The position numbers and the translations under genes were made by a program. DNA of 64,000 bases from Antrihabitans cavernicola (lineage in GTDB: Bacteria; Actinomycetota; Actinomycetes; Mycobacteriales; Mycobacteriaceae): NCBI RefSeq assembly GCF_008297975.1, contig NZ_VLNY01000008.1, positions 62,001 to 126,000 on the forward strand, given 5' to 3'. How positions within the stretch are numbered: the stretch's first letter is position 1; each line of letters begins with the position of its first letter. This document shows, in pieces, positions 13,636 through 39,959 of the stretch. The notes under the pieces were generated by a model, which saw only the letters and a program-made list of their open reading frames with translations, had not been told where the DNA came from and ran no database searches.

Positions 13636-16600
13636 TCAACGCATTTCGGGCAAAGCCGACACGACTCGCTCGGTCGGTGCGCCTCCGGTGAGAGCCGCTG
13701 CCAACAACCTGGGTGTGGGGTTGTCGAAAACGATTCCCGGCGGAAGTTTGCGACCGAGGAATTTCGTTAGATCGTTGCGCAGTTCCAGGCTGGTCAGTGA
13801 GTCGAATCCCGCGTCTCGAAACTGCTCGTCCGCCGCCATCAGGGCTTTTCTGTCGAGAATCTGCGCTGCGGTCACGCTGATCTTTTCGAGCAGGTCAGGC
13901 TCGGGGCTCTCCGTCGTGGTCGGCGTATCGACCACAGTTTCGGTGCGGTGGCCATGGTCGACGCGCGGTTCCGATCCGCCGCGGGTCGTGCTGAGGATGT
14001 CAGGCAACATGGTGGTGTCCGCGGCGAATTTCACTGCGGCAACGCATCGATCGGTGGGGGACGCCACCACACGATCGAACAGCGCGAGTGCTTCGGCGTT
14101 GCTCAACGGTTGCAGTCCTGCGTCCTCCATTCGCTTGAAATCGGAGTCCCGCAGGTGGCCGGTCATTCCGCTCGCTTCTTTCCACACGCCCCAGGCGATG
14201 GAAATGCGGCTGTAGTAGCTCGATTGCCCACCAGCTGTATCGGCCCGATGCTCGTCGCAGACGCTGTCGAGATAGGTGTTCGCTCCGGCGTAATTTGCCT
14301 GACCGAGCTCTCCGACCACACCGGAGATCGACGAGAAATGAACACACGCGGTTACTCCGTGTCGATCACACAACTCCGAAAGATGCACGGCTGGTATTGC
14401 TTTCGATGCGAATACTGTCGACAGCATCGACGATCCCATCATCTCGAGGGTGCCATCAGCCAGTACGCCGGCGGCATGCAGGACCACATCGGGTCGAAAG
14501 TCTGAGAACACATCGGACAGGCTGTCGTAGTCGCCGACGTCGCATCCCACGTACTCGATCGTCGAACCGGCGACGGTTTCGGGTGAATTCGTTGCAGCAG
14601 AACGTGATACGCAGCAGATCGCAGCAGGACCGTAGGTGTGTGCGATGTGCGCGCTCACCCGCCGACCGATACCGCCCGCTCCGCCGGTGACGAGAACGCG
14701 GGTGCCGGGTCCGATGAGGGGGCGTGTCGAGAAGATGTGCTTGCCGATCGTTGCGCCGTCCTTGAATTTCGCCACCGTGCGATCGAACCGGGCCAGCGGT
14801 GCGACCGACACCTGCAGCGACGGTCGATCTCCGAACGTGGTGAAGTGGTTCACCAGATCGCGCAAGGCCGTTGCGATTTCGGTGGTGTCTAGTGCCATCA
14901 GGTTGTAATGATGGAAATCGACGCCGTACTTCTCGGCGATGTCCGGCCGAACATCCGTCTTGCCGATTTCGACGAAGGCCCCGTCGCGTGCCAGCAGACT
15001 TGCGCCCGCGGTGATCTTGTCTCCGGTCAGGCTGTTGAGAACGCAGTCGAAAGGTCTTTTGCCCAAGAGCGACTCGAACTGCTCGACAAACGACGTCGAT
15101 CGTGAATCGGCGATTCGTTCCCAAGGAACACCGGCGGCGTGGACGGCACCGCGCTTGTCGCTGCTGGCAGTGGTGTAGACCTCGGCACCGAGATGGCGCG
15201 CGATCTGAATCGCAGCCATGCCGACTCCGCCTGCTCCGGCATGGATCAGCACCTTCATCCCGGGCCTGATCCGCGCGATCCCCGCCAGGCACTGTAATGC
15301 GGTCACATAGACGATCGGAACGGCTGCGGCCAATTGCATCGACCAGTTCCGCGGCACCACTGTTGCTCGCTCTGCGGGCATCCGCAGCACAGGAGCCAGA
15401 GCGCCGCCGGACAGAATGCCCATCACGCGATCGCCGGGTCGCAGGGTGTCGACCGCACTGCCGGTATCGGTGACTATGCCTGCGAACTCGATTCCCACAC
15501 CCGACTCGCCGTCGACCATCCCGAGATCGATTACCACATCGCGAAAGTTGAGTCCGCCGTAGTAGTTGGCGACTTCGATTTCGTTGGGCGCCAGGTTGTT
15601 ACCGAATGGTGGAGTCGGATGGTTCGACGGCGCTGGTTCGTCGTCCGGCACGTATCGGGGTACGTGAAGGCCGACGCCGTCGACCAGGATCTCGTCAGCG
15701 GGGTGACGCGCAGCGGCGTATACAGCTGCGATGGCGCTGCCGTCGGATCGGTGAATGATCTGGAACCGATCGGGGTGTTCCCGAAACGCGGTACGGAGCA
15801 TGCCGATGGCGGCACCGAACTGTGGACGGTGCGGGAGGACGACGCTGCTTCGGGTCACCACCGGCGAGTCGAGGATGGCGCGGATGATGCCGAGCGTTTC
15901 GGAGGCAAGTGCCAATGGATCGTTCTCGTCCGCCGAGCCCATGACGTAGACGCGGGGTCCGGGTGTCGCAAGCCACCGATCGAACGGCATCACCGACGTC
16001 GACGGCAATATCGACGTGTCGCCTGTGCTGGGCACCGACGATCCCACGGCTGCCGGAGACGCAATGGGTTCCCACGTCTTTCGCAGCAGGTCGCCGGACG
16101 GTGGTGGCGAGAATTCCGAGAAGCGAAGTGCTCCAATGGTCAAGAAGTGCTCACCATCGGCGCCGTAGCCCTCGATCGTGGCCGTCAGCGGCGCGGTCTC
16201 GACGACAACGAATCGGGCGGTCGGACCGACGACGACGTCCGTGTCGACGACGATGTCCTCGAAGGTGAACGGCACCACCATGGCGGCAGCGCCACCTTGC
16301 CTGCCAAGGGTGTGATCGATGAACGCGTGCAGGGCACCATCGACACCTGCGGGTGAAAACGGCAGCCCCGCAGCATGATCGGCGGGCATCTGCACGTCGA
16401 CGACGACGCTGTCGCCGATCACGCTGTACGACAGCACCGTTCGAAACGTCGGGCCGTACGCGTAGCCTGCAGCGGCCAGTCGCGCGTACATGTCGTCGCC
16501 GGTGACGCACTCGTCGCCAGATCGCGAGTCCGGAATCGGCGGCGACACGGCTCGGTCCGCCGCGCGTAACGGGCTCGGCGTCGCGCGCCCCAGTTCTCGA

Positions 16601-18180
16601 CCGGAACCGGATTGAAGAACCAGCGACCCTTCTTCGGCGATGCCACGCAGCGCGTCGTCGTCACCTTCGGGAAGCCAGGGGTCGAGAACGCACAGATCGT
16701 CGAGCCGAATCACTCCTCGCGTAGCGAGGCCGGCCATTGTCATCGCGACGATGTGCACGGCGGCGACAATCACTCGGTCGGCGATCACGTGGTCGGCTAC
16801 CGAGTCGAGATCCAGTGCTATCTCGAAGGATTGCTCGTTCGCGCCCATTGCGGACCCTATGTTGTCGGCCACGCCGGGGGTAGGGATCCAGAGGTGGTCG
16901 TAGTCGAATGCGTATCCCGGCAGATCGTCGATCGGGTACGCGCCACCGGTACGGGACGCGGCGAACGGCCGGGTCGCTGCGACGTCGACGACCGCGTGGA
17001 CAAAGTGGTCGAGACTGCCCTCATTTCGGCGGATCGTGGGAAAGGCGCGAGCAGCCAAGCCGATCCTGTCGAGGTCGGCGGTGATCGGTCGATGGAGGAC
17101 GGGATGCGGACTGACCTCGATGAACCGTCTGCCACCGTCGTCGCACGCGCTCTCGACGGCGCTCGAAAACTCCACGGGCCGGACGAGATTGCTCGCCCAG
17201 TAGTCCGGATCGAGTGCATCGATGGGCTTGCCCGGATGGGTCGTCGAGTACGTTCGCACCGTTCGCGCCGAGCCGGGCTGCAACGGTGCCCGCCGCAGCT
17301 CGTCCGCCATGCGGGCCGCAATCGAAACCAGTGCGCTCGAGTGGGCGGGGTAGCCGACCTCCACCCTGTGGGTTTCGATTTCGATCTCTGCGAACAGTGC
17401 TTCGGCGGAACGAATGTCGGGCACCGTGCCCGAGATCACCACGGCGGCAGCGGCGTTGATCGCAGCAAGTGAACATCCGGTTCGTTCGACGATGTCGAGG
17501 GTCTGTGCGCGACCCGCGTCGACTGCCAGCATGGCGCCGGCTGGCGCGTGATCGTGGATGAGATCAGCGCGCAGGGTGACCAGTCGTATTGCGGAATCCA
17601 GATCGAGTAGGCCTGCGAAATGAGCCGCCGCGATCTCGCCCTGAGAGTGGCCGATCACGCCCTCCGGTAGGCAATCGAATCCGGCCCAGAGCTCGGCAAG
17701 GCCGACCATGACCGACAGCAACGCGGGTTGCACTCGCGCCGTGCTGGTGAGCGCACCACCGCGCAACTCGGCAATGAGGTCCCACCCCGAGTGCTGCTCT
17801 ATCAAGGCGGCGCAGCGATCTATCACGCCGGCAAAATCGGCGCTGTCGTCCATGAGCGCCGATGCCATGCCGACCCATTGTGAGCCCTGGCCGGGGAAGA
17901 CGAAAATGTCTGTGCCGTCGATGATTCGCCCGCGTGAGAGCCACCCCGATCGCTGATCCAGCGCGTCGCGGACTTCGCGGGCAGTCCGACCGGCTGCGAC
18001 GGCCTGGTGCTGGTGCCCGACCTGGGCGTCGGCTGCGGCGCCGATGGCGTTGGGGAGGTCGTGCTCCGCGATGTTGCCCAACCACTGTTTGTGAGCGTCG
18101 ACGGTCAGTTCGAGCGAGTTCTCGGTCTTCGCGTACAGATGCAGGTAGCGCAGGGCGTCCGAATCGGCTGCTGAACTCAC
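13636..18180 (-). CDS. Type I polyketide synthase, second half: AT-DH-ER-KR-ACP
   Basis: A 1514-residue protein that begins directly with an acyltransferase, so its module lacks its own KS. AT about 91-380: active Ser179 in GHSQGE, substrate motif YPAH at 277-280 instead of HAFH or YASH. DH about 450-700: His464 and Asp614 with His618 are kept, but the HxxxGxxxxP signature reads HxxxDxxxxA. ER about 860-1150: GAGGVGMAA at 982-990. KR about 1155-1340: TGGAGGIG, Lys1260, Ser1284 or Ser1286 and Tyr1297. ACP: Ser1461 in GFDSL. The start is GTG with a perfect GAGGAGG five bases upstream, overlapping the previous TAG by one base (TAGTG). Together with the preceding KS it would elongate and reduce the starter acyl chain. 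Confidence 0.93.
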   Translation of the reverse strand: MSSAADSDALRYLHLYAKTENSLELTVDAHKQWLGNIAEHDLPNAIGAAADAQVGHQHQAVAAGRTAREVRDALDQRSGWLSRGRIIDGTDIFVFPGQGSQWVGMASALMDDSADFAGVIDRCAALIEQHSGWDLIAELRGGALTSTARVQPALLSVMVGLAELWAGFDCLPEGVIGHSQGEIAAAHFAGLLDLDSAIRLVTLRADLIHDHAPAGAMLAVDAGRAQTLDIVERTGCSLAAINAAAAVVISGTVPDIRSAEALFAEIEIETHRVEVGYPAHSSALVSIAARMADELRRAPLQPGSARTVRTYSTTHPGKPIDALDPDYWASNLVRPVEFSSAVESACDDGGRRFIEVSPHPVLHRPITADLDRIGLAARAFPTIRRNEGSLDHFVHAVVDVAATRPFAASRTGGAYPIDDLPGYAFDYDHLWIPTPGVADNIGSAMGANEQSFEIALDLDSVADHVIADRVIVAAVHIVAMTMAGLATRGVIRLDDLCVLDPWLPEGDDDALRGIAEEGSLVLQSGSGRELGRATPSPLRAADRAVSPPIPDSRSGDECVTGDDMYARLAAAGYAYGPTFRTVLSYSVIGDSVVVDVQMPADHAAGLPFSPAGVDGALHAFIDHTLGRQGGAAAMVVPFTFEDIVVDTDVVVGPTARFVVVETAPLTATIEGYGADGEHFLTIGALRFSEFSPPPSGDLLRKTWEPIASPAAVGSSVPSTGDTSILPSTSVMPFDRWLATPGPRVYVMGSADENDPLALASETLGIIRAILDSPVVTRSSVVLPHRPQFGAAIGMLRTAFREHPDRFQIIHRSDGSAIAAVYAAARHPADEILVDGVGLHVPRYVPDDEPAPSNHPTPPFGNNLAPNEIEVANYYGGLNFRDVVIDLGMVDGESGVGIEFAGIVTDTGSAVDTLRPGDRVMGILSGGALAPVLRMPAERATVVPRNWSMQLAAAVPIVYVTALQCLAGIARIRPGMKVLIHAGAGGVGMAAIQIARHLGAEVYTTASSDKRGAVHAAGVPWERIADSRSTSFVEQFESLLGKRPFDCVLNSLTGDKITAGASLLARDGAFVEIGKTDVRPDIAEKYGVDFHHYNLMALDTTEIATALRDLVNHFTTFGDRPSLQVSVAPLARFDRTVAKFKDGATIGKHIFSTRPLIGPGTRVLVTGGAGGIGRRVSAHIAHTYGPAAICCVSRSAATNSPETVAGSTIEYVGCDVGDYDSLSDVFSDFRPDVVLHAAGVLADGTLEMMGSSMLSTVFASKAIPAVHLSELCDRHGVTACVHFSSISGVVGELGQANYAGANTYLDSVCDEHRADTAGGQSSYYSRISIAWGVWKEASGMTGHLRDSDFKRMEDAGLQPLSNAEALALFDRVVASPTDRCVAAVKFAADTTMLPDILSTTRGGSEPRVDHGHRTETVVDTPTTTESPEPDLLEKISVTAAQILDRKALMAADEQFRDAGFDSLTSLELRNDLTKFLGRKLPPGIVFDNPTPRLLAAALTGGAPTERVVSALPEMR

Positions 18181-21100
18181 TAGTCCTCCTCGACGATCAT
18201 GTGGCAGTTGGTCCCGCTGATCCCGAAGGCCGACACGGCGCCGATTCGCCGCGTGCGGTGCCGCTCCCAGGCGGTGTTTCGTTGCGGCAGAGTGATATTG
18301 GATGCCCGCCAATCGATCATGGTTGTCGGTGTGTCGGCAAAGAGGGTTTTCGGGATGGTGCTGTGGCGCATCGCGAGCAAGACCTTCAGCAATCCCGCGG
18401 CGCCTGCGGCAGCCTGGGTGTGTCCGAGATTGGACTTGACGGATCCGAGGTGCAGCGGACGGTGCGGGTCGCGGTGCTGCCCGTAGGTGTTGGCGACAGC
18501 GGTTGCCTCGATGGGGTCACCGAGCCGCGTTCCGGTGCCGTGCGCCTCGACGAGGTCCACGTCGCGCGGATCGACTCGGGCTGCTCCGAGCGCTGCACCG
18601 ATCGCCTCCTCTTGCGAGCGCCCGTTCGGCGCGGTCAGTCCGTTGGATTTGCCGTCCTGAGTCACCGCGCTTCCGCTGATGTAGCCCAACACTTTTCGCC
18701 CTCGTGCCTTGGCGACAGATTCCAGCTCGAGAAGGAAGTAGACCGCGCCTTCCGCCCATGCTGTGCCATCTGCGTTGTCGGCGAACGGTTTGCAGCGTCC
18801 GTCCGGTGCGAGGCCGTGTTGCGCACTGAACTCGACGAACATGCCGGGGGTCGCCATGACGGTGACACCGCCCGCAATCGCGGCGTCGCAATCTCCGCCG
18901 CGCAGTGCGTCGGCTGCCGTGTGCAACGCGACCAGCGACGACGAGCACGCTGTGTCGACCGAGAGTGCCGGTCCGGTCAAACCGTGGTGGTAGGCGACGC
19001 GACCGGAGATGACGCTCGGCGTGGTGCCGGTGAGGCGATGGCCTTGGTGCTCGGGGATTCCGGACTCGTAGAGCCGGGCACCGTAGTCGTTGGATGTCGC
19101 TCCGACGTAGACGCCGGTGCGAGTCGGCAGCGATCCGCGCGAGGCCTCGACGAGGCGCTGAGACAGCTCGAGCGTGGCCCGCTGCTGGGGATCCATAGCC
19201 GTTGCCTCGCGGTTCGACAGGTCGAAGAACTGCGGATCGAACGATCCGGCGGATTCGAGGAATCCCCCTGATCGGACGTAGGTCTTGCAGGGCGTTCCAG
19301 GGGTGGGGTCGAAGAGTTGCGTGACGTTCCAGCCCCGATCCGTGGGAAAGTCGCCGATGACACAACGCTGCCGTTGCACGGTCGCCCACAGATCTGCGGG
19401 TGTCTCGATGCCCCCGGGCAGTTTGCAGGACGCGGCGACGATTGCGATCCGCTCGGAGTGTCGCCGGCGCCGTCGTATCCGGGGTCCAACGGATGCGCGG
19501 TCGCTCACGCCTGATTGCCCACCGAGGAAGTCCGCGAGCAACGCCGGTGTCGAATGCCGGTAGACGACGGTGTCTGCGATCCGGGTGCCGACGGTCGTCG
19601 TCAATGTCTCCGCGAGTTGCACTGCGCCACGTGAATCGAGCCCGAGATCCGAGAAGCTTCTGTGCGTATCGATCGGCCCGGCACCGGGAATCAGGCGTGC
19701 CAGCGCATCCACGACGGTGCTGAGCAGCCCGGACTCGTCTGCCTCAGAGCGGTTCTCTGTAGAGGCCGGTACGGGCGCCGAAGGCTGTCGCAGAAAAACT
19801 GTCTTCGGCAGTGGAAACGGTGCCGGTGCGGTGTGCGGCTGACGGTCGAGGATCGAGGGATCCGCACCCCACGTGAACAGCGTTGCGGCGGTCTCGTCGA
19901 TGGCAGACGCTTCTGAAGGAGACTTCGGTGACATTGCATGACTGCGTACCGGTGCCGTTTGCGCGACGAAGGTGCTGAGTGCGCGTCCTGGGCCGACTTC
20001 CACGAATTTGGTTGTGCCTGCGGCGATTGCAACCTGCACGGCATCGTGGAAGTGCACAGTGCCGGATGCGTTGGTCATCAGGAATCTGTCGGGCAGTGCT
20101 GCCATGGGAGCAAGCTCCGCACCTGTCGATGTCGAGATGACCCGCGTGTGTGGTGCTCTGAGCCGCAGGCGATTCTGCAACTCGATCATGCGGTCGCCGA
20201 CGGGATCGATGAGCGGCGAGTGAAAAGCATGACTCACCTGCAGTCGTTGCGATTTGAGTCTGTTGCGCTCGCACCAGTCCGAGACATGTTGCAGCGCTTC
20301 GTCGGTCCCGGCCACCACCGTTGCCTCGGGCGAGTTGAGCGCAGCAAATCTGACGCTGGCGCTCAGGTTTTCGATCGCAGGCGCCAGTGCCGTTGCTCCG
20401 GTGCGGACCGCGAGCATGCCGCCGGTCCGTGGGAGGTCGGCCATCGCCGCCGCGCGAGACGTGACGACCTCGGCAGCATCGGCGAGCGAAAGGTAGCCCG
20501 CGCAGTACAGAGCGGTGATCTCGCCGATCGAATGACCGATGAGGATGTCCGGTCGGAATCCGCGGCCGCACAGCGAGTGAAAGAGGCTGGCCTCGAAAGC
20601 GAACAGTGCAGGTTGGGTGTAACGCGTGTCGTGAATGGAATCGTCTTCGGTCCCCCACATCACCGATTGGATGGGCTCGTCCAGGTGGACGTTCAGGGCC
20701 GCGCAGATCTCCTCGAACTTCCATGCGAACTCGGCGTCTCTGTCGATCAGGCTGGCCCCCATACCTTTCCGCTGGCTGCCTTGCCCGGGAAAGACGCACG
20801 CGGTCAGGCCGGCCACCGATTCGCCCTGAATGGTCGACCGCGCGGTCTTCGTACCGCCCGCGACCGCGCGGAGTTCCTCGGCCAGTTCGTCCGCGGTGGC
20901 CGCCAGCACCGTGGTGCGAAAGTCGCCGAAGTCGCGGGTGTGTGCGGTAGCGGCAATATCGCGGATCGCTACCTGCTCGGGGCAATCGTCGATGAGTTGT
21001 GCGATGGTCGCGGCCTGGGCTCGCGCATGCTCCGGACTTGCCGAGCAGAGACCTATGCGGGTAGGTGAATCGTCGGAACGCGCAGCAGTAGTTGGTATTT

Positions 21101-22334
21101 CGGGCCGAGGAGTCGGACTCGCCAGGATGAGATGGCAGTTGGTTCCGCCCAAACCGAACGAGGAGAGGCCGACGTGCCGCAGTCCCGATTCGGCTCCGAC
21201 CAGAACGCGTGGGGCTTTGTCGAGAACGAGCGAATCCTGTTCTGCAAGAACAGCAAGCGGTTGGTCGACGATGGCTCCGGGGGCAACCCCGTGCTCGAGA
21301 ATGTGCAAAGCCTTGATCAGGCTCGCGGCCCCCGCAGCGCTTTCGAGGTGCCCGATGGTCTGCTTCGCCGAGCCGACGGGCAGTGGCCGGTTCCGCTCGG
21401 CGAAGGTCGCGATCATTGCCGCTGCTTCCGACGCGTCCCCGACGCGCGTACCGGTGCCGTGCAATTCGAGGTAGTCGAGATCGTTCGGGGAAAGACCTGC
21501 TCGCTGTAGTGCGGACTCGACTACCGCCTGCTGTGCACGACTGTCCGGGGCCGTGAGCCGACGCCCCTGGCGTCCGCAATTGGTCGCGCTTCCTGCGATC
21601 GCGGCGTGCTCGACCAGCCCGTGCTCCACCGCAGTAGACCTGCGGCACAACAACACCAACGCTCCACCTTCGCCACGCAGGTAGCCGTCGCTGCGTGTCG
21701 AGAACAAGCGGGGTTCGCCGGATACGGACAACACTCCGGCGGCATCGACCATCGATGTCGACAACGCACTGCCGTTGAGCTGGACGCCACCCGCGAGCGC
21801 GTAGTCGCATTCGCCGGAACGCACCTTGATCGCTGCTTCGTGGACAGCCATCAACGACGACGACTGTCCGGTGTCGATGACGACACTGGTACCGGAGAGG
21901 CCCAGCGTCTGTGACACCCGGTTCGCGATGAAACTCGTGGACGTGCCGGTCAAGGAATACGGAGTGGGATCGAACTGTGCCTCGGAATCGCGGAAGTCGC
22001 AGGCCATCGCGCCCAGCGTGACGCACGTCGTTGCCGATCGGAGCGTGCCGAAGCCGACGCCGGCGTCCTCGACGGCATGCACCGCGAGCTCCATGGCAAG
22101 TAGCTGTTGTGGGTCGGTTGCCGCCGCCTCGTCCTCGCCGAGTCCGAAAGCCGCTGCGTCCCAAGCGTACGAGTCGATTTTCGCAGACCGACGCACCCCG
22201 CGTCCCTGGTCGGTGAACGCCGTTCTGCCTGCCAGCATGGTCTCCCAGAAGGTGTCGTCCTCGGCCGCTCGTGGCAACCGAAACGAGTAGCCGACGATCA
22301 CGACAGGATCGTCCTGATACGCGTACGAAGTCAT
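18180..22334 (-). CDS. Type I polyketide synthase, first half: KSQ-AT-ACP-KS
   Basis: A 1384-residue protein. The first KS (about 1-430) has Gln157 in DTGQSSS where Cys is usual, with His292 and His329 kept: a KSQ loading domain that decarboxylates malonyl- to acetyl-ACP. AT about 515-800: Ser602 in GHSIGE and a HAFH motif (702-705), predicting malonyl. ACP: Ser901 in GLDSR. A basic linker RIRRRRRHSE leads to a second KS (about 960-1384) with canonical Cys1130 (DTACSSS) and AHGTGT. The protein stops right after this KS, so the AT of the same module is on the next protein. The start ATG at 22332-22334 begins the KS domain directly; no strong ribosome site is visible and upstream starts exist. 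Divergent from the KSIII gene. Confidence 0.93.
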   Translation of the reverse strand: MTSYAYQDDPVVIVGYSFRLPRAAEDDTFWETMLAGRTAFTDQGRGVRRSAKIDSYAWDAAAFGLGEDEAAATDPQQLLAMELAVHAVEDAGVGFGTLRSATTCVTLGAMACDFRDSEAQFDPTPYSLTGTSTSFIANRVSQTLGLSGTSVVIDTGQSSSLMAVHEAAIKVRSGECDYALAGGVQLNGSALSTSMVDAAGVLSVSGEPRLFSTRSDGYLRGEGGALVLLCRRSTAVEHGLVEHAAIAGSATNCGRQGRRLTAPDSRAQQAVVESALQRAGLSPNDLDYLELHGTGTRVGDASEAAAMIATFAERNRPLPVGSAKQTIGHLESAAGAASLIKALHILEHGVAPGAIVDQPLAVLAEQDSLVLDKAPRVLVGAESGLRHVGLSSFGLGGTNCHLILASPTPRPEIPTTAARSDDSPTRIGLCSASPEHARAQAATIAQLIDDCPEQVAIRDIAATAHTRDFGDFRTTVLAATADELAEELRAVAGGTKTARSTIQGESVAGLTACVFPGQGSQRKGMGASLIDRDAEFAWKFEEICAALNVHLDEPIQSVMWGTEDDSIHDTRYTQPALFAFEASLFHSLCGRGFRPDILIGHSIGEITALYCAGYLSLADAAEVVTSRAAAMADLPRTGGMLAVRTGATALAPAIENLSASVRFAALNSPEATVVAGTDEALQHVSDWCERNRLKSQRLQVSHAFHSPLIDPVGDRMIELQNRLRLRAPHTRVISTSTGAELAPMAALPDRFLMTNASGTVHFHDAVQVAIAAGTTKFVEVGPGRALSTFVAQTAPVRSHAMSPKSPSEASAIDETAATLFTWGADPSILDRQPHTAPAPFPLPKTVFLRQPSAPVPASTENRSEADESGLLSTVVDALARLIPGAGPIDTHRSFSDLGLDSRGAVQLAETLTTTVGTRIADTVVYRHSTPALLADFLGGQSGVSDRASVGPRIRRRRRHSERIAIVAASCKLPGGIETPADLWATVQRQRCVIGDFPTDRGWNVTQLFDPTPGTPCKTYVRSGGFLESAGSFDPQFFDLSNREATAMDPQQRATLELSQRLVEASRGSLPTRTGVYVGATSNDYGARLYESGIPEHQGHRLTGTTPSVISGRVAYHHGLTGPALSVDTACSSSLVALHTAADALRGGDCDAAIAGGVTVMATPGMFVEFSAQHGLAPDGRCKPFADNADGTAWAEGAVYFLLELESVAKARGRKVLGYISGSAVTQDGKSNGLTAPNGRSQEEAIGAALGAARVDPRDVDLVEAHGTGTRLGDPIEATAVANTYGQHRDPHRPLHLGSVKSNLGHTQAAAGAAGLLKVLLAMRHSTIPKTLFADTPTTMIDWRASNITLPQRNTAWERHRTRRIGAVSAFGISGTNCHMIVEED

Positions 22335-22396
22335 GATTGCGATGGTGTCATTCGGCATCCATTGCATTGCTGGAGTGTGGCTAGACCCCGGCAGAG

Positions 22397-23507: not shown

Positions 23508-23929
23508 CTCTCGTCGACGTAGTCGGTCTCGAGAGCTTCGACCAGGAATCGCAGCGCTGCGTCGTCCTCGGTCGAACCGAGCCGGTACTCGACGTTGCTC
23601 AGGCCGATGCGGTCGGCAACAGCCCGGTAGCGCTGATCGAGCAGCGCGCGGCGCTGCTGCGCGTCGGGTGCGGTGTTGGCGAAGTACGACGTATCGACTT
23701 CGAAGACCGCAGCGAGCGCCTCCAGCGTCTTTTTCGAAGGATTCGTGACTCGAGCACTGCGCAGTTCCGACAGCGATGCTTCGGACAATGTATAGCCCAG
23801 CGCCTTGGCCTGTGCGACGACGGCTCGGCCCGTCCAGGGTTTTCCGTTCTGGTCGCGCGTGTTGACGAACAGCGCACGTATGCGGTCGGCGAGAGTATCG
23901 AGTCTGTCACCGGCGGTATCGACGTCCAT
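23504..23929 (-). CDS. EspR-like helix-turn-helix regulator
   Basis: A 141-residue protein. The N-terminal 80 residues hold an XRE-like HTH with SEASLSELRSARVTNPSKKT and then LEALAAVFEVDTSYF, the layout of mycobacterial EspR, a nucleoid-associated activator of ESX-1 genes. Close relatives are often present near specialised loci in mycolata. The ATG has AGGAG five bases upstream. Its stop overlaps the convergent KSIII gene by 4 bases. Inside this cluster it may help the SARP control the PKS genes; that is inferred from position. Confidence 0.75.
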   Translation of the reverse strand: MDVDTAGDRLDTLADRIRALFVNTRDQNGKPWTGRAVVAQAKALGYTLSEASLSELRSARVTNPSKKTLEALAAVFEVDTSYFANTAPDAQQRRALLDQRYRAVADRIGLSNVEYRLGSTEDDAALRFLVEALETDYVDES

Positions 23930-24830: not shown

Positions 24831-24871
24831 TTCCATCGTCCTCCGTTGGTCTGCATCGACAAAGCGAATTA

Positions 24872-32047: not shown

Positions 32048-32728
32048 TTATCGAGTCCCCGCAGTGCTTTCGCTGTATGCCACGCGCTGCGCGAACAGCG
32101 GCTTAGCTTGCAGGCCGCTAATGGTGAGTCGCGCAGTGACGTTGCGGTAGAAGCTCGGCCGCAGTACCTGATTGGCCATGAATCGCAGCACGGTGCCGGG
32201 GACGACCACGTAGTTCGCGATGACGAACGGGGTGCCCGGTTCGAACTCCAGCAGCGTCGAGTTGGTCACCTTCAGCACCGACTCGTACCATTGGCTGATC
32301 TCTTTCCATGCCTCGGTCGCAACCTGCGGCGACGCCTCGCCGACAAAGTGGTTGAGCAGCACGGGTCCATCGGTGTCGTCGGTGTCGCCGAATCGCGCCG
32401 CATTGCGTGCCGCAGCAACGAATTCCGGTTTCGGAACGTCGTGACGTGACCTCGCCGACTCGAAGTCGTCTCGAACGGACCCCTCCGAATCGATCAGGAG
32501 GACGACGTCGAACTGTGGCTTGTTGGGAAGCGGCGGAATGAAAGTGGACTCGAAGAGGCGAACGCGGTGCACGCTGCCGAGCTCGTCGAGCTCGCGAGCA
32601 ACCCGGCGCAGGCCCTCGAGCGCCGCCTCGCGAGTGCGGCTGCCTTTGACGAACGGTCCGATCGTGTGCAGGTCGATGTTCCAGCCGTAGTACGTGAACT
32701 CGGTCGGAATGGTTTCGGCGAATTGCAT
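32048..32728 (-). CDS. Unknown 226-residue protein of the polyketide cluster
   Basis: The ATG at 32728 has AAAGGA seven bases upstream, 47 bases after the MarR stop, so it is a real, probably co-transcribed gene. The protein starts with MQFAETIPTEFTYYGWNIDL, has no signal peptide or membrane helix, and contains STFIPPLPNKPQFDVVLLID, HFVGEASP and a C-terminal part rich in aromatic and basic residues. I cannot place it in a named family with confidence. Its place behind the MarR gene and a FAD hydroxylase suggests a tailoring role or a role in handling a toxic product, which remains inference. Confidence 0.7.
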   Translation of the reverse strand: MQFAETIPTEFTYYGWNIDLHTIGPFVKGSRTREAALEGLRRVARELDELGSVHRVRLFESTFIPPLPNKPQFDVVLLIDSEGSVRDDFESARSRHDVPKPEFVAAARNAARFGDTDDTDGPVLLNHFVGEASPQVATEAWKEISQWYESVLKVTNSTLLEFEPGTPFVIANYVVVPGTVLRFMANQVLRPSFYRNVTARLTISGLQAKPLFAQRVAYSESTAGTR

Positions 32729-32775
32729 CGTCGTGTCCTTTCTTGTTGATGTTTTCGGCCGTGCAATCCGGACGC

Positions 32776-33243
32776 CTAAGTGAGTGCGCTCGGGATGTCG
32801 GCGCTCATGTCGCGCAGTGAGTAGGCAAGGGTGCGGAGGTACCACATGACTGCGCTGCGGTACTCCGGAACGACGTCGTTGAAGACCCGCTGAACCGAAC
32901 CGCCCGCATCTTGGTACAGCGATCGCACCTGCTCGAAGCGTTCGGTCGAGGCCACCCTCGCGGAGCGGCCATCTTTGGGATCGGTTGATCTGGTTATCCA
33001 GCCGTCATCTTCGAGTCTGGCGAGAACCCCGGTCAAGGTGGCGGCCCGCATCCCGGTACGTGCGGCCAGGTGGCCCGGTGTGCACGCTCCTTCGCGATCG
33101 ATCACGTCCAGCAGGTCGAGGTCTCGTGGTTTGATCCCTGCCGCAGCGGCGACTCGGTCGTTGACGATGCGCAGTTCTATGCGCAAGACACGGAACGCGT
33201 CGATGAGTTCCTGGTCTTGGTGTTCTGTATTTGCGTCAACCAC
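32776..33243 (-). CDS. MarR-family transcriptional regulator
   Basis: A protein of about 155 residues. The winged helix is clear: LDLLDVIDREGACTPGHLAARTGMRAATLTGVLARLEDDGWITR, then DPKDGRSARV in the wing. The start is uncertain. The open frame reaches GTG 33279, but neither this nor the GTG at 33243 has a good ribosome site; I use 33243 because it leaves the symmetrical sequence at 33255-33273 just upstream of the gene. It lies downstream of a FAD hydroxylase on the same strand. MarR proteins in aromatic polyketide clusters often sense the product or an intermediate; that fits here but is inferred. Confidence 0.8.
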   Translation of the reverse strand: MVDANTEHQDQELIDAFRVLRIELRIVNDRVAAAAGIKPRDLDLLDVIDREGACTPGHLAARTGMRAATLTGVLARLEDDGWITRSTDPKDGRSARVASTERFEQVRSLYQDAGGSVQRVFNDVVPEYRSAVMWYLRTLAYSLRDMSADIPSALT

Positions 33244-33254
33244 GTCTTCCAAAC

Positions 33255-33273: not shown

Positions 33274-33316
33274 TCGCACGTAAAACGACGAACTGCCAGC
33301 TCAGGATATATTTCGG

Positions 33317-34807
33317 TCAGGTCGCAGCTGCAGACTTTGCGGGCGAATGCGCCCGCGACCCCGGTGTGCCGTCGGCGATTGCTCGCATCAGCGACGGCGA
33401 ATTCGGCGCGCCCGCCCACGCGATATACCCGTCGGGTCGGACGAGCAGCGCCTGATCGCGGACGGTCTCGCTGTGCACAACGGCGACGGCTCCCGAACGG
33501 CTTGCCGCACGGGTGACGTTCGTGGCCCACGGTGTTGCCAGCACGAATTGGCCTGCGCCGAGCGTATTTCGAGCGTCGGCATCGGTCACCGAACCGCTCC
33601 AGAACGCGCCGACATCGCCAGATCCGGTCCCGCCGCATCGGGCGCGTACCCCGGCCAGCGACATGGCGATCCCCTGCGCGAACCGACGCCCGAGCGGCCC
33701 CGAATTGTTCGCCACGGCCAGAATGCCCCAGCGCACGGCCGCTGGAATCGAGCTCATCCGCATTGCCGCCCGCACCATGTTCCCCGAATCGACCAGCGCC
33801 TTTGCTCCGATCGGGCGCATCTCCGCCTCGTAGTCGTCGAGAAAGCGAGGTTCGCCGGTGCGCAGTGCGGCGTCGAGACGCCACGACAGGTTTGCCACAT
33901 CTTGGATTCCGACGTTCATTCCGAGCCCGCCCGCCGGCGAATGCACGTGTGCCGCGTCTCCGACGAGAAACGCGCGGCCTTCTCGATACTGCGTCGCCTG
34001 GCGCTCGTCGCTGTGGAAGCGCGAAATCCATCGCGGCGAATGCAGTCCCATCTCGCGCTCGAACACCGCGTCGCACAGATCGCGTAAGTCGGCGAAGTCG
34101 ACGTCGTTGTTGACATGCTCACGCGTACCGCTGTTCCACGCCAGTACGCGGTAGTACCCGTCTTCGATGGGGCAGATGAACGAGAAACCGTGACCGTTCG
34201 CTTCGATGGCCAGTCCCTTGTCGGGAGGAAAGTCGACTTTTGCGTCCGCAATGATCACCGACGACAAGACGGCCTCGCCGGGAAAGTCGATGCCGAGCGA
34301 ATTTCGCACAGTGCTGTGGAGCCCGTCCGCGCCGACGACGTACGACGCTGTCACCTCGCCCTGCTGCTGATCGCCGTCGAGCGTGTGTACGTATCGCACG
34401 ACGACGCCGTCCGAATTCTGTTGCAAAGAAACCACTTCGGCTTCGTAGTCGAATTCAGCACCTGCGGCTACGGCGCGCGCCTCGAGTACGCGTTCCACGG
34501 CGAACTGCGGAGTAACCAACATGAAGGGAAACGGCGTATCGAGCTTGCTGAACTCGACGTCGAGCGCACCGACGAGCGGAAGCGACTTCATCGGCTCGCC
34601 TGATGCGATGATCTCCGGTGCCAGCCCCCGAATCGCCAGGTGGTCGAGTGCTCGGGCGTGCACCGAGAACGCCCTGGTGAGATTCGAGTTGGTCTTCGCT
34701 CGCTTCTCGAGGACGACGACCCTGTGCCCCTTGCCCGCAAGGTCTCCGGCCAACATCAGCCCGGTCGGCCCCGCGCCGACGACGATGACATCTACTTCCG
34801 TGCTCAC
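33317..34807 (-). CDS. FAD-dependent aromatic polyketide hydroxylase 1 (PgaE/RdmE type)
   Basis: A 496-residue class A flavoprotein monooxygenase. VIVVGAGPTGLMLAGDL at the N-terminus binds FAD, and GDAAHVHSPAGGLGMNVGIQDV near residue 290 is the second FAD motif of aromatic hydroxylases. The C-terminal thioredoxin-like tail ends with VRPDGYIAWAG. The GTG start at 34807 has GGAGGA seven bases upstream. Relatives hydroxylate or rearrange angucycline and anthracycline rings with NADPH and oxygen. It heads a leftward unit with MarR and the 226-residue protein and is divergent from hydroxylase 2. Confidence 0.92.
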   Translation of the reverse strand: MSTEVDVIVVGAGPTGLMLAGDLAGKGHRVVVLEKRAKTNSNLTRAFSVHARALDHLAIRGLAPEIIASGEPMKSLPLVGALDVEFSKLDTPFPFMLVTPQFAVERVLEARAVAAGAEFDYEAEVVSLQQNSDGVVVRYVHTLDGDQQQGEVTASYVVGADGLHSTVRNSLGIDFPGEAVLSSVIIADAKVDFPPDKGLAIEANGHGFSFICPIEDGYYRVLAWNSGTREHVNNDVDFADLRDLCDAVFEREMGLHSPRWISRFHSDERQATQYREGRAFLVGDAAHVHSPAGGLGMNVGIQDVANLSWRLDAALRTGEPRFLDDYEAEMRPIGAKALVDSGNMVRAAMRMSSIPAAVRWGILAVANNSGPLGRRFAQGIAMSLAGVRARCGGTGSGDVGAFWSGSVTDADARNTLGAGQFVLATPWATNVTRAASRSGAVAVVHSETVRDQALLVRPDGYIAWAGAPNSPSLMRAIADGTPGSRAHSPAKSAAAT

Positions 34808-34972: not shown

Positions 34973-36460
34973 GTGACCGAATCAACGAGTGCCGCAACAA
35001 CATCTGATCACCGCGCCGGCGTCGACGTGCCGGTCGTCATCGTTGGGATGGGTCCGACGGGCCTCATGTTGGCCGGTGAGCTTCGGCTGCGGGGTATCGA
35101 CTGCCTGGTGATCGGTTCGTCGAGCACGCCCGACACGGAGTCACGGGCATTGGGTTTCACGTCCAGCACCCAGGAGATCTTCGCGCACCGCGACATGCTC
35201 CACGAATTCGGGGAGCTGGAACGCGTTGCTGCCGTGCACTTTGCGGGGATCGTGATCTCTTCGGATCATCTCTCGTCGCCCTACTTACCGGTGATGCGAT
35301 TCCCGCAGTACAAGACCGAGGGCGTCTTGCACGCGAGGGCGCAGCGTTTGGGTGCCGACATCAAGCGCGGCTGTACGGTCACCGAAATTGTGGAGTCCGA
35401 CGAGTATCTGGAAACTGTCGCCAAGGGTCCGACCGGGGAATTTCGCGTGCGCTCGCGTTACGTCGTGGGATGCGACGGCGCCCACAGCGCGGTGCGCGGC
35501 TTTGCGTCCCTTGACTACTCGCTCAGCCCGCCGAACGTTCAGATGCTGCTCGCAGATATCGAGCACGCCGGGCTGCCGAACAACCCCTTTGGGAAGCGGA
35601 CGTCGACCGGCATGGTGATGTCGGGTCCACTGAGCGACGACGTGGACCGGTTGATCGTCTGTGATTTCCACGCGGAACCGCTCGAACGAGGTGTGCGGGT
35701 CGAGGAAAAACACCTGCAAGCGGCGTACAAGAACATCACCGGCGACGATCTTCCGCAGGGAAAGATCCGATGGGCCAGCTACTTCAACGATGCATCCGGA
35801 ATGGCGCCGTCGTTCCGCAAGGGTCGCATCTTCTTGGCGGGCGACGCTGCCCACACTCACCTGCCCGCAGGCGGGCAGGGCATGAACGTGTCGCTGCAGG
35901 ACGCGGTGAACCTCGGCTGGAAGCTCGCCGCGGACATTCAGGGCTGGGCGCCTGCGGACCTGCTGGACAGCTACGACGCCGAGCGTGGGCGCGCAGCCGC
36001 CGAACTCCTTGCCGACACTCGCGCACAGGGCCAGTTGTTCCTCGGCGGCCGCGAGGTGGAGCCGGTACGAGATCTGGTGACGCGCCTGGCCGCTACCGCA
36101 GGCGCCGCGGAAGTTCTTGCGGACGAGGTCACCGGGATGGCCTTGCGATACGACTTCGCCGGTGACACGCCCGAGCCGATCGGACGCCTGCTACCCACCA
36201 AACACCTTCGCGTGTCGGGCGAAGACACCCCGCCGCGCGGACTGCTGCGAGACGGGCGCGGACTTTTTCTTGCGTCGGGTGGCGCCGCGACCAGCGCAGC
36301 TGTGCTCGAACGGTGGCGCGACCGTGTGCAGGTCGAAGAGATCTCGACACCGACGGGGGCGGAGGCGCTGGTCCGTCCGGACGGCTACGTGGCGTGGACA
36401 TCGGACGCCGACGAATCACTGTCCTGTGCGCTCGAACGTTGGTTCGGCGCAGCAAGTTAG
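34973..36460 (+). CDS. FAD-dependent aromatic polyketide hydroxylase 2
   Basis: A 495-residue class A monooxygenase. VIVGMGPTGLMLAGEL near residue 20 and GDAAHTHLPAGGQGMNVSLQDAVNLGWKL near residue 290 are the FAD motifs; the tail holds LVRPDGYVAWTS. The GTG start leaves a short N-terminal extension rich in Thr and Ala; no strong ribosome site is visible. It leads a rightward unit: hydroxylase 2, TcmI-like cyclase, hydroxylase 3, carboxylase beta, epsilon. In angucycline pathways such enzymes hydroxylate C-12/C-12b or drive ring changes; the exact position here is unknown. Confidence 0.92.
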   Translation: MTESTSAATTSDHRAGVDVPVVIVGMGPTGLMLAGELRLRGIDCLVIGSSSTPDTESRALGFTSSTQEIFAHRDMLHEFGELERVAAVHFAGIVISSDHLSSPYLPVMRFPQYKTEGVLHARAQRLGADIKRGCTVTEIVESDEYLETVAKGPTGEFRVRSRYVVGCDGAHSAVRGFASLDYSLSPPNVQMLLADIEHAGLPNNPFGKRTSTGMVMSGPLSDDVDRLIVCDFHAEPLERGVRVEEKHLQAAYKNITGDDLPQGKIRWASYFNDASGMAPSFRKGRIFLAGDAAHTHLPAGGQGMNVSLQDAVNLGWKLAADIQGWAPADLLDSYDAERGRAAAELLADTRAQGQLFLGGREVEPVRDLVTRLAATAGAAEVLADEVTGMALRYDFAGDTPEPIGRLLPTKHLRVSGEDTPPRGLLRDGRGLFLASGGAATSAAVLERWRDRVQVEEISTPTGAEALVRPDGYVAWTSDADESLSCALERWFGAAS

Positions 36461-36489
36461 AAGAAATCACCGCAACGAAAGGGATCGAC

Positions 36490-36810
36490 ATGTTCTCCAC
36501 CCTGATCATCGCCAAATTCGAGCAGCCCGAGCTGAATTCGATCGCCGACATCTTCGGCGAGTTCGACAGAAGCGATATGCCCGAGCGGATGGGCACCATG
36601 CGGCGGCAGCTGTTCAAGTACCACGACCTCTACATCCACGCCCAGGATTTTGCCGAAGATCATGGGCCGGATCAGGTCGAGAAGGCTCGGACCGACCCGC
36701 GATTCGTCAAGATCAGCGACGATCTTCGCCCCTTCTTCAACGCATACGACCCGAACTGGTCCGGGCCGAAAGACGCGATGGCACAGTGCTTCTACCGGTG
36801 GCAGCGGTGA
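36490..36810 (+). CDS. TcmI-family polyketide cyclase
   Basis: A 106-residue dimeric ferredoxin-fold cyclase. The signature stretch reads RRQLFKYHDLYIHAQDF, then KARTDPRFVKISDDLRPFFNAYDP and a final CFYRW, closely like TcmI and the JadI/UrdF/LanF group that closes the last ring. AAAGGG lies six bases before the ATG. It starts 29 bases after hydroxylase 2 and its TGA overlaps the next GTG (GTGA). In combination with the ketoreductase and didomain aromatase it points to a four-ring, angucycline-like product. Confidence 0.92.
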   Translation: MFSTLIIAKFEQPELNSIADIFGEFDRSDMPERMGTMRRQLFKYHDLYIHAQDFAEDHGPDQVEKARTDPRFVKISDDLRPFFNAYDPNWSGPKDAMAQCFYRWQR

Positions 36811-38201
36811 CGGGTGGACAATGGGACGTCGTAGTCGTCGGTGCCGGTCCGGCGGGGAGTCTGCTCGCCGGATCCCTCGCCGGTCGCGGCGCATCGGTGC
36901 TGCTGCTCGAACGTGACGACGCAATCTCCGAGCAGACTCGGGCCAGCACGCTGAATTCTCGTTCCATGGAGATCATGTCGTCGGTGGGCGTGCCCGGACT
37001 CGCCGACAATCCGCGATCGATGTTCGGCCATTACGGGGGCGTCCCGGTCAGCCTCGAGCAGGTCGACAGTCCGTGGGCCGGCCTGTGGTCGATTCCGCAG
37101 CCGAGTCTGGTTCGCATGCTGCGGGATTGGGCGGTCGACAACGGTGCGGTCCTGAAGACCGGATCAACCTTCGTCGGTGCCGATGCCGCACGGTCGGCAG
37201 TGGTGTCGCGGACAGCCACGGGCGAAAGGTACGAAAGCAGAACCCTTGTCGGCGCGGACGGCTGCGACAGCGTGGTTCGCGACAGCCTGGGGTTCACGCT
37301 CACCGGTACCGCGGCCAGTCGCCATATGATTCGATGCGACGTTGCAGGAATCAGCGTCGCGCGACGCAGATTCGAGCGGCACGGCGACATGATTGTCACG
37401 TCCGGCGCGATCTCACCGCGCACCACGCGGCTGATGCTCCACTCCCCCCGCTACAGCGCGGCTGCGACGCCCGGGTTCGACGACGTCTGCAGCGACTGGC
37501 TCGAGGCGACCGGCGAACAGGTGCACGAGGGTGAGTGCGTGTGGCTGGACACGTTCTCCAACGGTTGCTCGGCCGTCGAGCAATGGCGCGTGGGACCGGT
37601 GTATCTCGTCGGCGACGCCGCGCATGACCAACCTCCCGTCGGTGGCAGTTCGCTCAATGCCAGTGTGCAGGATGTCTACAACCTGGCGTGGAAGCTGTCG
37701 GCCGTATACAGCGGCGCGCCAACGGCTTTGCTGGATACCTACGGTTCCGAACGTGCCGAGGCGACGGCGGTGATGCAGCAGGACGTTCGCGTCCAGGAGT
37801 CGCTGGTGTTCGGCGCAGACCTCGGGAAAGTTCAGCTCGTGCGGGATCGCCTGGCCGAGTCCGAGCCGTATCGGCAGAGGATCGCGCGATCGGTTGCCGG
37901 AGTCGACACGGACTATGCGGCAAGCACCGAAACGGGTTCGCGTGTCTCGCCCGCTGCGCTTGCTCGCATGCTCGGACGGGCACCGCAACCCGACGAAGCC
38001 GCACTGCTCGGCCGAGAGGCCATCGTGGTGGCGGGTGCTCACCGCGACGACGTGCTCTGCGTGATTCGTCCAGATGGACACGCGGCGTGGGAGCCGGCGA
38101 ACTCGAGCGTCGAATCGAAAGCGGCGATCGCTCGATGGTTCGGGGACGCAATCGATCCCATGGTCCTGAGCGCCGATCACTACGCTCACACATCGAGTTG
38201 A
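36807..38201 (+). CDS. FAD-dependent aromatic polyketide hydroxylase 3
   Basis: A 464-residue class A monooxygenase. VVVVGAGPAGSLLAGSL at the N-terminus and GDAAHDQPPVGGSSLNASVQDVYNLAWKL near residue 270 are the FAD motifs. The second motif deviates from the usual HxPxGGQGMN (here PPVGGSSLN), so this is a more distant branch than hydroxylases 1 and 2. It is also about 30 residues shorter. Its GTG overlaps the cyclase stop, so the two are co-translated. Confidence 0.88.
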   Translation: MTGGQWDVVVVGAGPAGSLLAGSLAGRGASVLLLERDDAISEQTRASTLNSRSMEIMSSVGVPGLADNPRSMFGHYGGVPVSLEQVDSPWAGLWSIPQPSLVRMLRDWAVDNGAVLKTGSTFVGADAARSAVVSRTATGERYESRTLVGADGCDSVVRDSLGFTLTGTAASRHMIRCDVAGISVARRRFERHGDMIVTSGAISPRTTRLMLHSPRYSAAATPGFDDVCSDWLEATGEQVHEGECVWLDTFSNGCSAVEQWRVGPVYLVGDAAHDQPPVGGSSLNASVQDVYNLAWKLSAVYSGAPTALLDTYGSERAEATAVMQQDVRVQESLVFGADLGKVQLVRDRLAESEPYRQRIARSVAGVDTDYAASTETGSRVSPAALARMLGRAPQPDEAALLGREAIVVAGAHRDDVLCVIRPDGHAAWEPANSSVESKAAIARWFGDAIDPMVLSADHYAHTSS

Positions 38202-38211
38202 TTCGGGGGCA

Positions 38212-39759
38212 ATGATGAGGCAGAGCGTCGAGGAGCTGAGGGGAGTCAAGCAGTTCGTCGCCGACGGATCGGATCGGGCCGCGACCGAGCGTCAGCATGC
38301 CAAGGGCAAACTGACTGTGCGCGAACGCATTGCGCTGCTGCTGGATCCGGGCTCGTTTCAAGAAGTGGATGCGTTGCGGAGGCATCGCGCAACGGGCTTC
38401 GGTCTGGAGAACAGCAGGCCACCGACGGACGGCGTGGTCACCGGCTGGGGAACTGTGTTCGGACGCACCGTTTTTGTCTACGCACAGGACTTTCGAATCA
38501 TGGGAGGCGCACTCGGAGAGGCGCATTCGCAGAAGATTCACAAGATCATGGATATGGCGATCGCGGCCGGTGCACCTCTGGTGGGCCTCAACGACGGTGC
38601 GGGCGCCCGGATCCAGGAGGGCGTGAGTGCGCTCGCCGGGTTCGGTGGGATCTTTCAACGAAATACGAAGGCATCGGGTGCGATTCCGCAGATCAGCGTG
38701 ATGCTGGGTCCATGTGCGGGCGGTGCGGCCTACAGCCCCGCGCTCACCGACTTCGTGTTCATGGTGCGAAATATCTCGCAGATGTTCATAACCGGACCCG
38801 ACGTCATCGAGACGGTGACCGGTGAACGGGTCAGCATGGACGAACTCGGCGGTGCGGATGTGCACGCCGGGACGTCCGGTGTCGCGCACGTGGTGCACGA
38901 CGACGAAGAAGCCTGCCTGCACGACGTGCGGGTGTTGCTGTCGATGTTGCCTGCCAACAACCGCGAACAGCCACCGGTGCACGCGAGCGCGGATCCGATC
39001 GAGCGGCGTAGTGAGGCGTTGTACGACCTGGTGCCGTCGGACGTCAGCCGTCCATACGACATGCGATCGGTGATCGAGGAGGTCGTCGACGATCGGGCGT
39101 TCTTCGAGGTGCACGAACAGTGGGCGCCCAACGTCGTATGCATGCTGGCACGGCTGGACGGGAACGTGGTCGGGATTGTGGCGAATCAACCGAATTCCCT
39201 TGCGGGAGTGCTCGACATCGCTGCTTCGGAGAAGGCTGCCGGATTCGTCCAGACCTGCGACTCGTTCAACATCCCGCTGGTGACCCTGGTGGATGTGCCC
39301 GGCTTTCTGCCCGGTGTGGGACAGGAACACAGCGGGATCATCAGACACGGCGCGAAGCTGCTCTACGCGTACTGCAACGCCACCGTGCCACGTATTTCGG
39401 TGGTCCTCCGCAAGGCGTACGGCGGCGCCTACATCGTGATGGATTCGCGTTCGATAGGCGCGGACCTGGCGTTTGCCTGGCCCACGAACGAGATCGCTGT
39501 GATGGGAGCCGACGGCGCGGCCAACGTCATCTTCCGCCGCGAGATCGCTGCTGCCGACGATCCTGTCGCGACCCGCTCGCAGAAGGTCGAGGAGTACCGA
39601 AGCGAACTGATCCACCCGTACTACGCCGCGGAACGCGGCTTGGTGGACGACGTGATCGATCCGGCCGCCACCCGAGAAGTGCTGATTCGAAGCTTGGCGA
39701 TGCTCAAAGGCAAGCACGCGGACATTCCCATGCGGAAACACGGAAACCCACCTCAGTAG
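38212..39759 (+). CDS. Acyl-CoA carboxylase carboxyltransferase (beta) subunit
   Basis: A 515-residue biotin-dependent carboxyltransferase. KGKLTVRERIALLLDPGSF at the N-terminus, the GGALGEAH and GPCAGGAAYSP oxyanion loops, and DVPGFLPG are visible. At the position that sets specificity in Streptomyces enzymes (Asp in PccB, Ile in AccB) this protein has Ile408 in GGAYIVM, favouring acetyl-CoA and so malonyl-CoA supply. It lies 10 bases after hydroxylase 3 and 11 bases before the epsilon subunit. The alpha (biotin) subunit is not in the window. It probably feeds the PKS. Confidence 0.92.
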   Translation: MMRQSVEELRGVKQFVADGSDRAATERQHAKGKLTVRERIALLLDPGSFQEVDALRRHRATGFGLENSRPPTDGVVTGWGTVFGRTVFVYAQDFRIMGGALGEAHSQKIHKIMDMAIAAGAPLVGLNDGAGARIQEGVSALAGFGGIFQRNTKASGAIPQISVMLGPCAGGAAYSPALTDFVFMVRNISQMFITGPDVIETVTGERVSMDELGGADVHAGTSGVAHVVHDDEEACLHDVRVLLSMLPANNREQPPVHASADPIERRSEALYDLVPSDVSRPYDMRSVIEEVVDDRAFFEVHEQWAPNVVCMLARLDGNVVGIVANQPNSLAGVLDIAASEKAAGFVQTCDSFNIPLVTLVDVPGFLPGVGQEHSGIIRHGAKLLYAYCNATVPRISVVLRKAYGGAYIVMDSRSIGADLAFAWPTNEIAVMGADGAANVIFRREIAAADDPVATRSQKVEEYRSELIHPYYAAERGLVDDVIDPAATREVLIRSLAMLKGKHADIPMRKHGNPPQ

Positions 39760-39770
39760 GAGCCCCGAAC

Positions 39771-39959
39771 ATGACAGCTGAACCGTTCTTGCGCATCGAA
39801 CGTGGCACTCTCACCGACGACGAGATCGTTGCGCTCACCATCGTTCTCGCCGCGGCCGTTGCAGACGATGCTCCCAATCAGGAACGAGCACAGGTTCATT
39901 GGCTGCCGCTCGGTCGCCGTCCCGCATTCGTTCCACAGCTCAGTTGGCGGGCGGCCTGA
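39771..39959 (+). CDS. Acyl-CoA carboxylase epsilon subunit
   Basis: A 62-residue protein directly after the beta subunit. Actinobacterial epsilon subunits are short, variable, and bridge alpha and beta subunits. This one has the usual start (FLRIERGTLTDDEIVALT) and the usual end (FVPQLSWRAA, near the conserved W). TAGGAG lies eight bases before the ATG. It is the last gene I assign to the polyketide cluster. Confidence 0.85.
   Translation: MTAEPFLRIERGTLTDDEIVALTIVLAAAVADDAPNQERAQVHWLPLGRRPAFVPQLSWRAA

Follow-up and report, generated by a model that had tools for sequence, protein, structure and literature searches.

The gene set at positions 13636-39759 of the DNA analysed here (the window, a stretch of 64,000 nucleotides from Antrihabitans cavernicola) is best read, with a probability of roughly 0.7, as a hybrid cluster of the hedamycin/kidamycin type, in which a type II aromatic PKS would be primed with the product of a type I PKS. 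The domain content and motifs of the genes favour this reading, and two other loci, one in Streptomyces sp. ISL-1 and one in a genome of the same class (G455), independently show a matching logic. Counted against it are a deletion in the CLF (KS-beta), the long branch and changed positions of the KS-alpha, a degenerate DH domain, the rarity with which type I and type II genes are found side by side, the lack of KSIII and discrete acyltransferase (AT) matches in the ISL-1 locus, and the product-class gene families missing from the scanned ORFs. If correct, it would mean that hedamycin/kidamycin-style priming is not confined to Streptomyces-type bacteria but also occurs in a mycolic-acid actinobacterium, with a strongly divergent set of sequences. 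What sets the cluster apart is a module divided between KS and AT, a CLF that has lost a segment, a KS-alpha on a very long branch, and a host family in which no close relative was found. The cluster is a divergent one built on a scheme already known from Streptomyces, and is to that extent less new than the original prediction held.

The gene set and its type I PKS pair

The source is a 5.66 Mb draft genome in 41 contigs, and the parts list (Table 1) was built from ORFs, codon-use gene calls and Pfam scans (50 entries, one ORF appearing twice). By ORFs and Pfam/PDB searches the genes stop at 39759, short of the cluster end first given (39959). The searches back the KS-alpha, ACP, aromatase/cyclase (ARO/CYC), TcmI-like cyclase, type II ketoreductase (KR), three FAD monooxygenases and the acyl-CoA carboxylase (ACCase) beta subunit, so that the type II set, predicted to be complete, falls short only in its CLF, which lacks 50 residues. 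They agree with the predicted KSIII-like protein and discrete AT and, together with motifs, with a two-protein type I PKS reading KSQ-AT-ACP-KS and AT-DH-ER-KR-ACP. Each cluster gene is a single uninterrupted reading frame (ORF and Pfam analysis). A codon-use gene caller omitted the KS-beta, ACP, 226-aa, cyclase and FAD3 genes, the coding scores of which resemble the rest under a model trained on the other cluster genes. Scans of the window with Rfam (gathering threshold) and for tRNA returned nothing. The anticipated mycolic-acid type of the host is supported by a Pks13 match in its genome that exceeds the cut-off (2618.8 bits, cut-off 2100).

Table 1. Features of the gene set, with positions in the window
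Feature	Position	Strand	Evidence
PKS2, 1514 aa: KS-AT linker, AT, DH, ER, KR, ACP	13636..18180	-	Pfam scan and motifs
PKS1, 1392 aa: KSQ-AT-ACP-KS	18180..22358	-	Pfam scan and motifs
DpsC-like KSIII acyltransferase, Ser-His-Asp triad	22500..23507	+	Pfam, PDB search, alignment
Possible HTH regulator	23504..23929	-	HTH_3, 22 bits, slightly below cut-off 23
SARP-type pathway activator	24006..24836	-	Trans_reg_C and BTAD
Two-domain aromatase/cyclase	25025..25999	-	Best PDB match BexL (4xrw)
Discrete acyltransferase	26069..27058	-	Pfam Acyl_transf_1; GHSAG and PFH
Type II ACP	27072..27338	-	GLDSL
KS-beta/CLF, 356 aa, 50-residue in-frame deletion, Gln to His (DHAGG)	27353..28423	-	Alignment
KS-alpha, active-site residues kept	28420..29667	-	Stop overlaps KS-beta start (GTGA)
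Type II ketoreductase	29850..30635	+	Best PDB matches 3sju and actinorhodin KR
226-aa protein, no known family	32048..32728	-	0 Pfam matches
MarR-type regulator	32776..33243	-	Pfam scan
FAD-dependent aromatic hydroxylase 1	33317..34807	-	Pfam scan
FAD-dependent aromatic hydroxylase 2	35027..36460	+	Pfam scan
TcmI-like polyketide cyclase	36490..36810	+	PF04673, E 9.8e-37
FAD-dependent aromatic hydroxylase 3	36807..38201	+	GTG start overlaps cyclase stop
Acyl-CoA carboxylase beta subunit	38212..39759	+	GGAYIVM motif; PDB match 7w5u

The type I pair contains the two modules of a hedamycin/kidamycin-type starter line: a loading module, in the form of a type I KSQ protein (PKS1) beside the type II PKS, and a reducing extension module (KR and DH, with an ER in kid), in the form of the AT-DH-ER-KR-ACP of PKS2. 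The KSQ of PKS1 carries the motif DTGQSSS and its second KS the motif DTACSSS. The TAG stop of PKS1 and the GTG start of PKS2 share one G, with GGAGG just upstream; the split is therefore real in this sequence, and the arrangement suggests that the two genes are translationally coupled. Near its N-terminus, from about residue 32 onward, PKS2 aligns with the pre-AT stretch of DEBS modules, which we take to be the KS-AT linker, and the module split therefore falls between KS and AT. A thioesterase domain was sought in PKS2 by Pfam scan and none was found.

The AT of PKS1 carries GHSIG and HAFH, and that of PKS2 carries GHSQG and YPAH. In PDB searches the PKS2 AT is matched best by the ATs of modular PKSs, among them Lsd14, DEBS and PikA1, which prefer methylmalonyl; its YPAH aligns with the YASH of DEBS. 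According to PMC10646177, HAFH denotes malonyl and YASH methylmalonyl, and YPAH is not among the motifs given. The loading AT looks malonyl-type by its motif, and for the PKS2 AT a methylmalonyl type is likelier, if not certain, because of the YPAH/YASH alignment and the modular-AT matches. The cofactor motifs of the PKS2 ER and KR are intact. The PKS2 DH retains the His and Asp of the dyad in a degenerate HxxxGxxxxP motif from which both G and P are gone; in the ISL-1 DH the G of the first motif is gone and the P retained.

Priming proteins and the proposed route

The best PDB match of the KSIII is DpsC (E 5.5e-60), with which its RQMSNGG and GHLGAGD motifs align, and its triad is Ser-His-Asp where others have Cys-His-Asn. 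An ordinary FabH-type KSIII was dropped as a candidate, the active-site residue being Ser and not Cys. According to a review (PMC12664062), DpsC has the triad S118-H297-D302 and is able to transfer acyl groups to its ACP, HedS is grouped with DpsC, and ZhuC strips short acyl groups, thereby lowering acetate priming. Given the Ser-His-Asp triad of DpsC, the KSIII of the window most plausibly acts in priming, by acyl transfer, and its company with a discrete AT is that of the hedamycin/kidamycin type. Among 100 loci, in which certain genomes are represented twice, matches at E 1e-20 number 17 for the KSIII and 30 for the discrete AT; the Ser motif was found by pattern in 15 of the 17 KSIII matches and GHLGxxD in all 17. 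The genome itself holds a second, weaker DpsC-type KSIII match (31%, G000:C12:555871-556878), on a contig that also bears large modular PKS frames.

The carboxylase beta subunit has an Ile in GGAYIVM, which we take to mark the acetyl-CoA type. A methylmalonyl-forming carboxylase was dropped, as this Ile stands at a place that we take to be Asp in wild-type PccB, the meaning of the Asp being likewise our assumption; two PccB chains aligned with the carboxylase carry Ile and Val there.

From the genes, motifs and split read directly in the DNA, we infer every reaction of the following route and its product. The AT of PKS1 would load malonyl, which the KSQ would decarboxylate to acetyl-ACP; the C-terminal KS of PKS1 and the AT of PKS2 would then carry out one extension with methylmalonyl, and the KR, DH and ER, if active, would reduce the chain to 2-methylbutyryl-ACP, or, with a weak ER or DH, leave it as the enoyl or hydroxy form. 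As PKS2 has no release domain, the DpsC-like KSIII is proposed to pass the acyl chain on to either the type II ACP or KS-alpha/CLF, and the discrete AT probably clears wrongly loaded acetyl groups or aids loading. KS-alpha/CLF would elongate the chain with malonyl from the ACCase, the KR, ARO/CYC and TcmI-like cyclase would fold it, and the FAD enzymes would oxidise it to a quinone-type aromatic bearing a sec-butyl or butenyl side chain. If active, the cluster is thus predicted to make an aromatic compound whose side chain is a branched C4 unit.

Butyryl and 2-methylbutyryl had both been put forward as starters; 2-methylbutyryl is the likelier because the second AT appears to be methylmalonyl-type, and butyryl was dropped as the favoured starter on the same ground. 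A saturated starter had been predicted from the ER, which is indeed present, but saturation is a guess and the ER no proof of it, because the kidamycin side chain retains a C=C although Kid14 has an ER (PMC10646177). By analogy with the closest parallels, an anthrapyran nucleus would be at least as consistent as an angucycline-like one; the kind of cyclase is not by itself enough to predict an angular tetracyclic product.

The shortened CLF and the state of the cluster

The KS-alpha (Cys167, His307, Lys339 and His344 present) and the ACP are intact, and it is the CLF that breaks the intact KS-alpha/CLF/ACP set of the hedamycin/kidamycin type. The 50-residue segment that it misses occurs in every CLF matched across 100 loci (98 of 98), and the deletion is also evident against the actinorhodin CLF and nine CLFs of the family. 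At the position of a Gln linked to acetate self-priming, 90 of the 98 CLFs have Q and eight have A, E, G or D; the window has H. A frameshift was dropped as the cause of the short CLF, since the missing residues were looked for in three frames at the gap and occur in none; poor coding quality of KS-beta was dropped as well, its codon scores being like those of neighbouring cluster genes.

In other CLFs, as we understand it, the lost stretch contributes a helix to the thiolase fold, so the CLF fold is probably harmed, and without this conserved segment the cluster may be inactive. We put the chance that the line still runs in its present form somewhat below even. Val, Gly and Leu occupy what we take to be the chain-length positions of the CLF, presumably Phe, Thr and Phe in the actinorhodin CLF; this could hint at a pocket bigger than octaketide, to which we give no weight because of the deletion.

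Nearly an even chance is given to a decaying cluster, that is, a hybrid pathway selected until recently that has lost its CLF core and now makes no aromatic product. Decay does not conflict with a type I line built to make a primer, a reading about the original role of the genes rather than their present state. The deletion, unique to the window among 99 CLF rows, and the Gln to His change argue for it, and so does the distribution of the ARO/CYC gene, found in one of the four genomes of the genus (the window's own) and in none of the three congeners, which gives no sign of recent maintenance. The ranking of rows by changed near-invariant positions points the same way, the window coming 1st of 96 for KS-alpha, 1st of 64 for KR, 3rd of 18 for KSIII and 4th of 96 for KS-beta. 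Near-invariant positions are nevertheless mostly retained, in KS-alpha (122/131), KR (77/84), ARO/CYC (47/49), KSIII (26/32), TcmI (9/10), carboxylase (224/228) and KS-beta outside the gap (58/61), which speaks against decay, as do the open frame of every cluster gene and the persisting GTGA overlap of KS-alpha and KS-beta. These counts rest on 96 rows for KS-alpha, 96 for KS-beta, 64 for KR, 77 for ARO/CYC, 18 for KSIII, 17 for TcmI and 13 for the carboxylase, with rows left out that fell below identity/length limits, contained stops or duplicated another row. A shorter CLF, of 211 residues, is moreover described from an aryl polyene system of Xenorhabdus (PMC12664062). In a 98-row tree the KS-alpha has the longest branch (1.45; median 0.16) and groups with eight Streptomycetaceae rows, one of them L055 (support 99/95), a placement that the tree tool warns is unsure.

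It is unlikely that the short CLF is an assembly or sequencing artefact limited to this gene, in which case the strain would have a full-length CLF and a complete cluster: the loss is exactly in frame with the remainder of the gene intact, and the genome is a draft of 41 contigs, but no direct repeat of at least 12 bases that might explain a collapse was found in 28000-28600. An active cluster with a naturally trimmed CLF that also does without the Gln tied to acetate self-priming, its KS-alpha/CLF therefore wholly dependent on primer from the split type I line, is distinctly improbable; it would mean that a type II synthase has evolved to take only a delivered starter, in a family where our searches turned up no hybrid I/II aromatic cluster. 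The locus offers a natural test of whether an extension module can be split between KS and AT, and of how much of the CLF is dispensable.

Distribution and related systems

ARO/CYC occurs in 25 of 401 family genomes, the window's own included, the best other identity among the matches listed being 43%; the 20 stretches retrieved from the family, each 6 to 20 kb long, contain no type I KS motif. In the best-listed 80 loci of a contig search, the top KS-alpha identity is 64% (Streptomyces lushanensis); three of these loci (L055, L064 and L127) have, by motif, a type I ORF with KS and AT within about 10 kb, and a fourth, L101, has a type I-like KS alone. By these searches, type I genes adjoining type II genes appear rare. 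The DpsC-like KSIII was detected at E 1e-30 in 34 of 394 class genomes, own included. Around the 16 strongest of 51 listed KSIII matches outside the own genome, a type II KS-alpha (at least 57%) was found in eight cases, a type I-like ORF (by motif) in three, and both in a single one, G455.

These low counts (one of the 16 KSIII loci, three of the 80 contig-search loci and none of the 20 family loci) favour an alternative in which the type I pair forms a short pathway of its own that happens to adjoin an acetate- or propionate-primed type II cluster. We consider this quite unlikely, since PKS2 lacks a release domain with the KSIII acyltransferase adjoining, and since type I and type II genes are also adjacent in ISL-1, G455 and kid. 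The G455 stretch (L145, G455:C1:4910200-4930100) encodes a KS-alpha, KS-beta, carboxylase beta subunit, KSIII, discrete AT and ARO/CYC together with a KSQ-ACP protein without its own AT and a KS-AT-DH-ER-KR-ACP protein; it bears O-methyltransferase and nucleotidyl transferase genes too. In ISL-1, KSQ-AT-ACP and KS-AT-DH-ER-KR-ACP lie beside ACP, ARO/CYC, KS-alpha and KS-beta; the ISL-1 stretch searched gave no match to either the KSIII or the discrete AT. Both place the KS of the extension module on the second protein, unlike the window. Judged by these two loci, the window's parts list is of a recurring kind, consistent with a type I line that supplies the primer.

Among known systems, the KR points to hedamycin, its best PDB match being 3sju, which we take to be the hedamycin KR. 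The daunorubicin DpsC/DpsD system likewise has a Ser-His-Asp KSIII with an AT in the cluster and, to our knowledge, no type I PKS. Its primer is propionate (PMC12664062). Hedamycin (HedT, HedU, HedS, HedF), likened here by partial published description, combines two type I proteins, a DpsC-like KSIII, a discrete AT and a type II PKS. In published accounts (PMC10646177, PMC9570651, PMC6560455), HedU has a malonyl-type AT and no ER (that of Kid14 being called additional), its proposed iteration giving a hexadienyl primer, and the cluster has two C-glycosyltransferases.

The hedamycin parallel originally drawn therefore holds for primer building, the reading that we prefer, but kidamycin, with an ER and a methylmalonyl AT in Kid14, is closer, and the ER is not new because Kid14 already has one. 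The kidamycin/rubiflavinone cluster of Streptomyces sp. W2061 is the nearest published parallel, likened by its published description and not by Kid sequences: a type II PKS is accompanied by KSQ loading and the Kid14 module, and the products were lost once kid13 had been disrupted (PMC10646177). As described there, Kid13 is AT-KSQ-AT-ACP and ends at the ACP, with Kid14 as the second module, whereas the window splits after the KS; the window also differs in its short CLF, its mycolic-acid host and the lack of sugar or C-glycosyltransferase genes in the scanned stretch. The pluramycin class was dropped, its C-glycosyltransferase, aminosugar and P450 genes being absent among the ORFs checked for product-class families (those between 12263 and 43913); as no glycosyltransferase, deoxysugar or P450 family occurs among these ORFs, this is not a full pluramycin cluster. 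The brasiliquinone B cluster of Nocardia brasiliensis is also a type II PKS of a mycolic-acid actinobacterium, likened by its partial description (PMC11762266), and in trioxacarcin the same 2-methylbutyryl starter has a different source, isoleucine (PMC9570651 / PMC6560455). Our searches of the open-access literature listed no publication on this cluster or on hybrid I/II aromatic clusters of the family.

Flank comparison with three congeners revealed no insertion border: the left-flank oxidoreductase has several paralogues, and a search of all three at E 1e-60 found no counterpart of the right-flank esterase. The 226-aa protein has one weak relative (28%) across 60 other genomes and no match at E 1e-6 in the best-listed 80 loci of the contig search; lying within the cluster, it may represent a new family of tailoring or cyclisation enzymes. 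Between the KR and the regulators, 30949-31707 (+) encodes a protein with a signal-peptide-like start and no Pfam family, probably outside the pathway. To the left of the cluster, at 7208-12259, lie genes for an AraC regulator, a flavin monooxygenase, a GMC oxidoreductase and an acetoacetate-decarboxylase-like protein, likely a separate catabolic set. Finally, in Kitasatospora sp. CB01950 (L055 and L133), type I PKS genes that give three KS matches, and one product of which begins with an AMP-binding loading domain, adjoin a KSIII-KSa-KSb-ACP-AT-KR-ARO/CYC set, a possible hybrid with a ligase-loaded primer.
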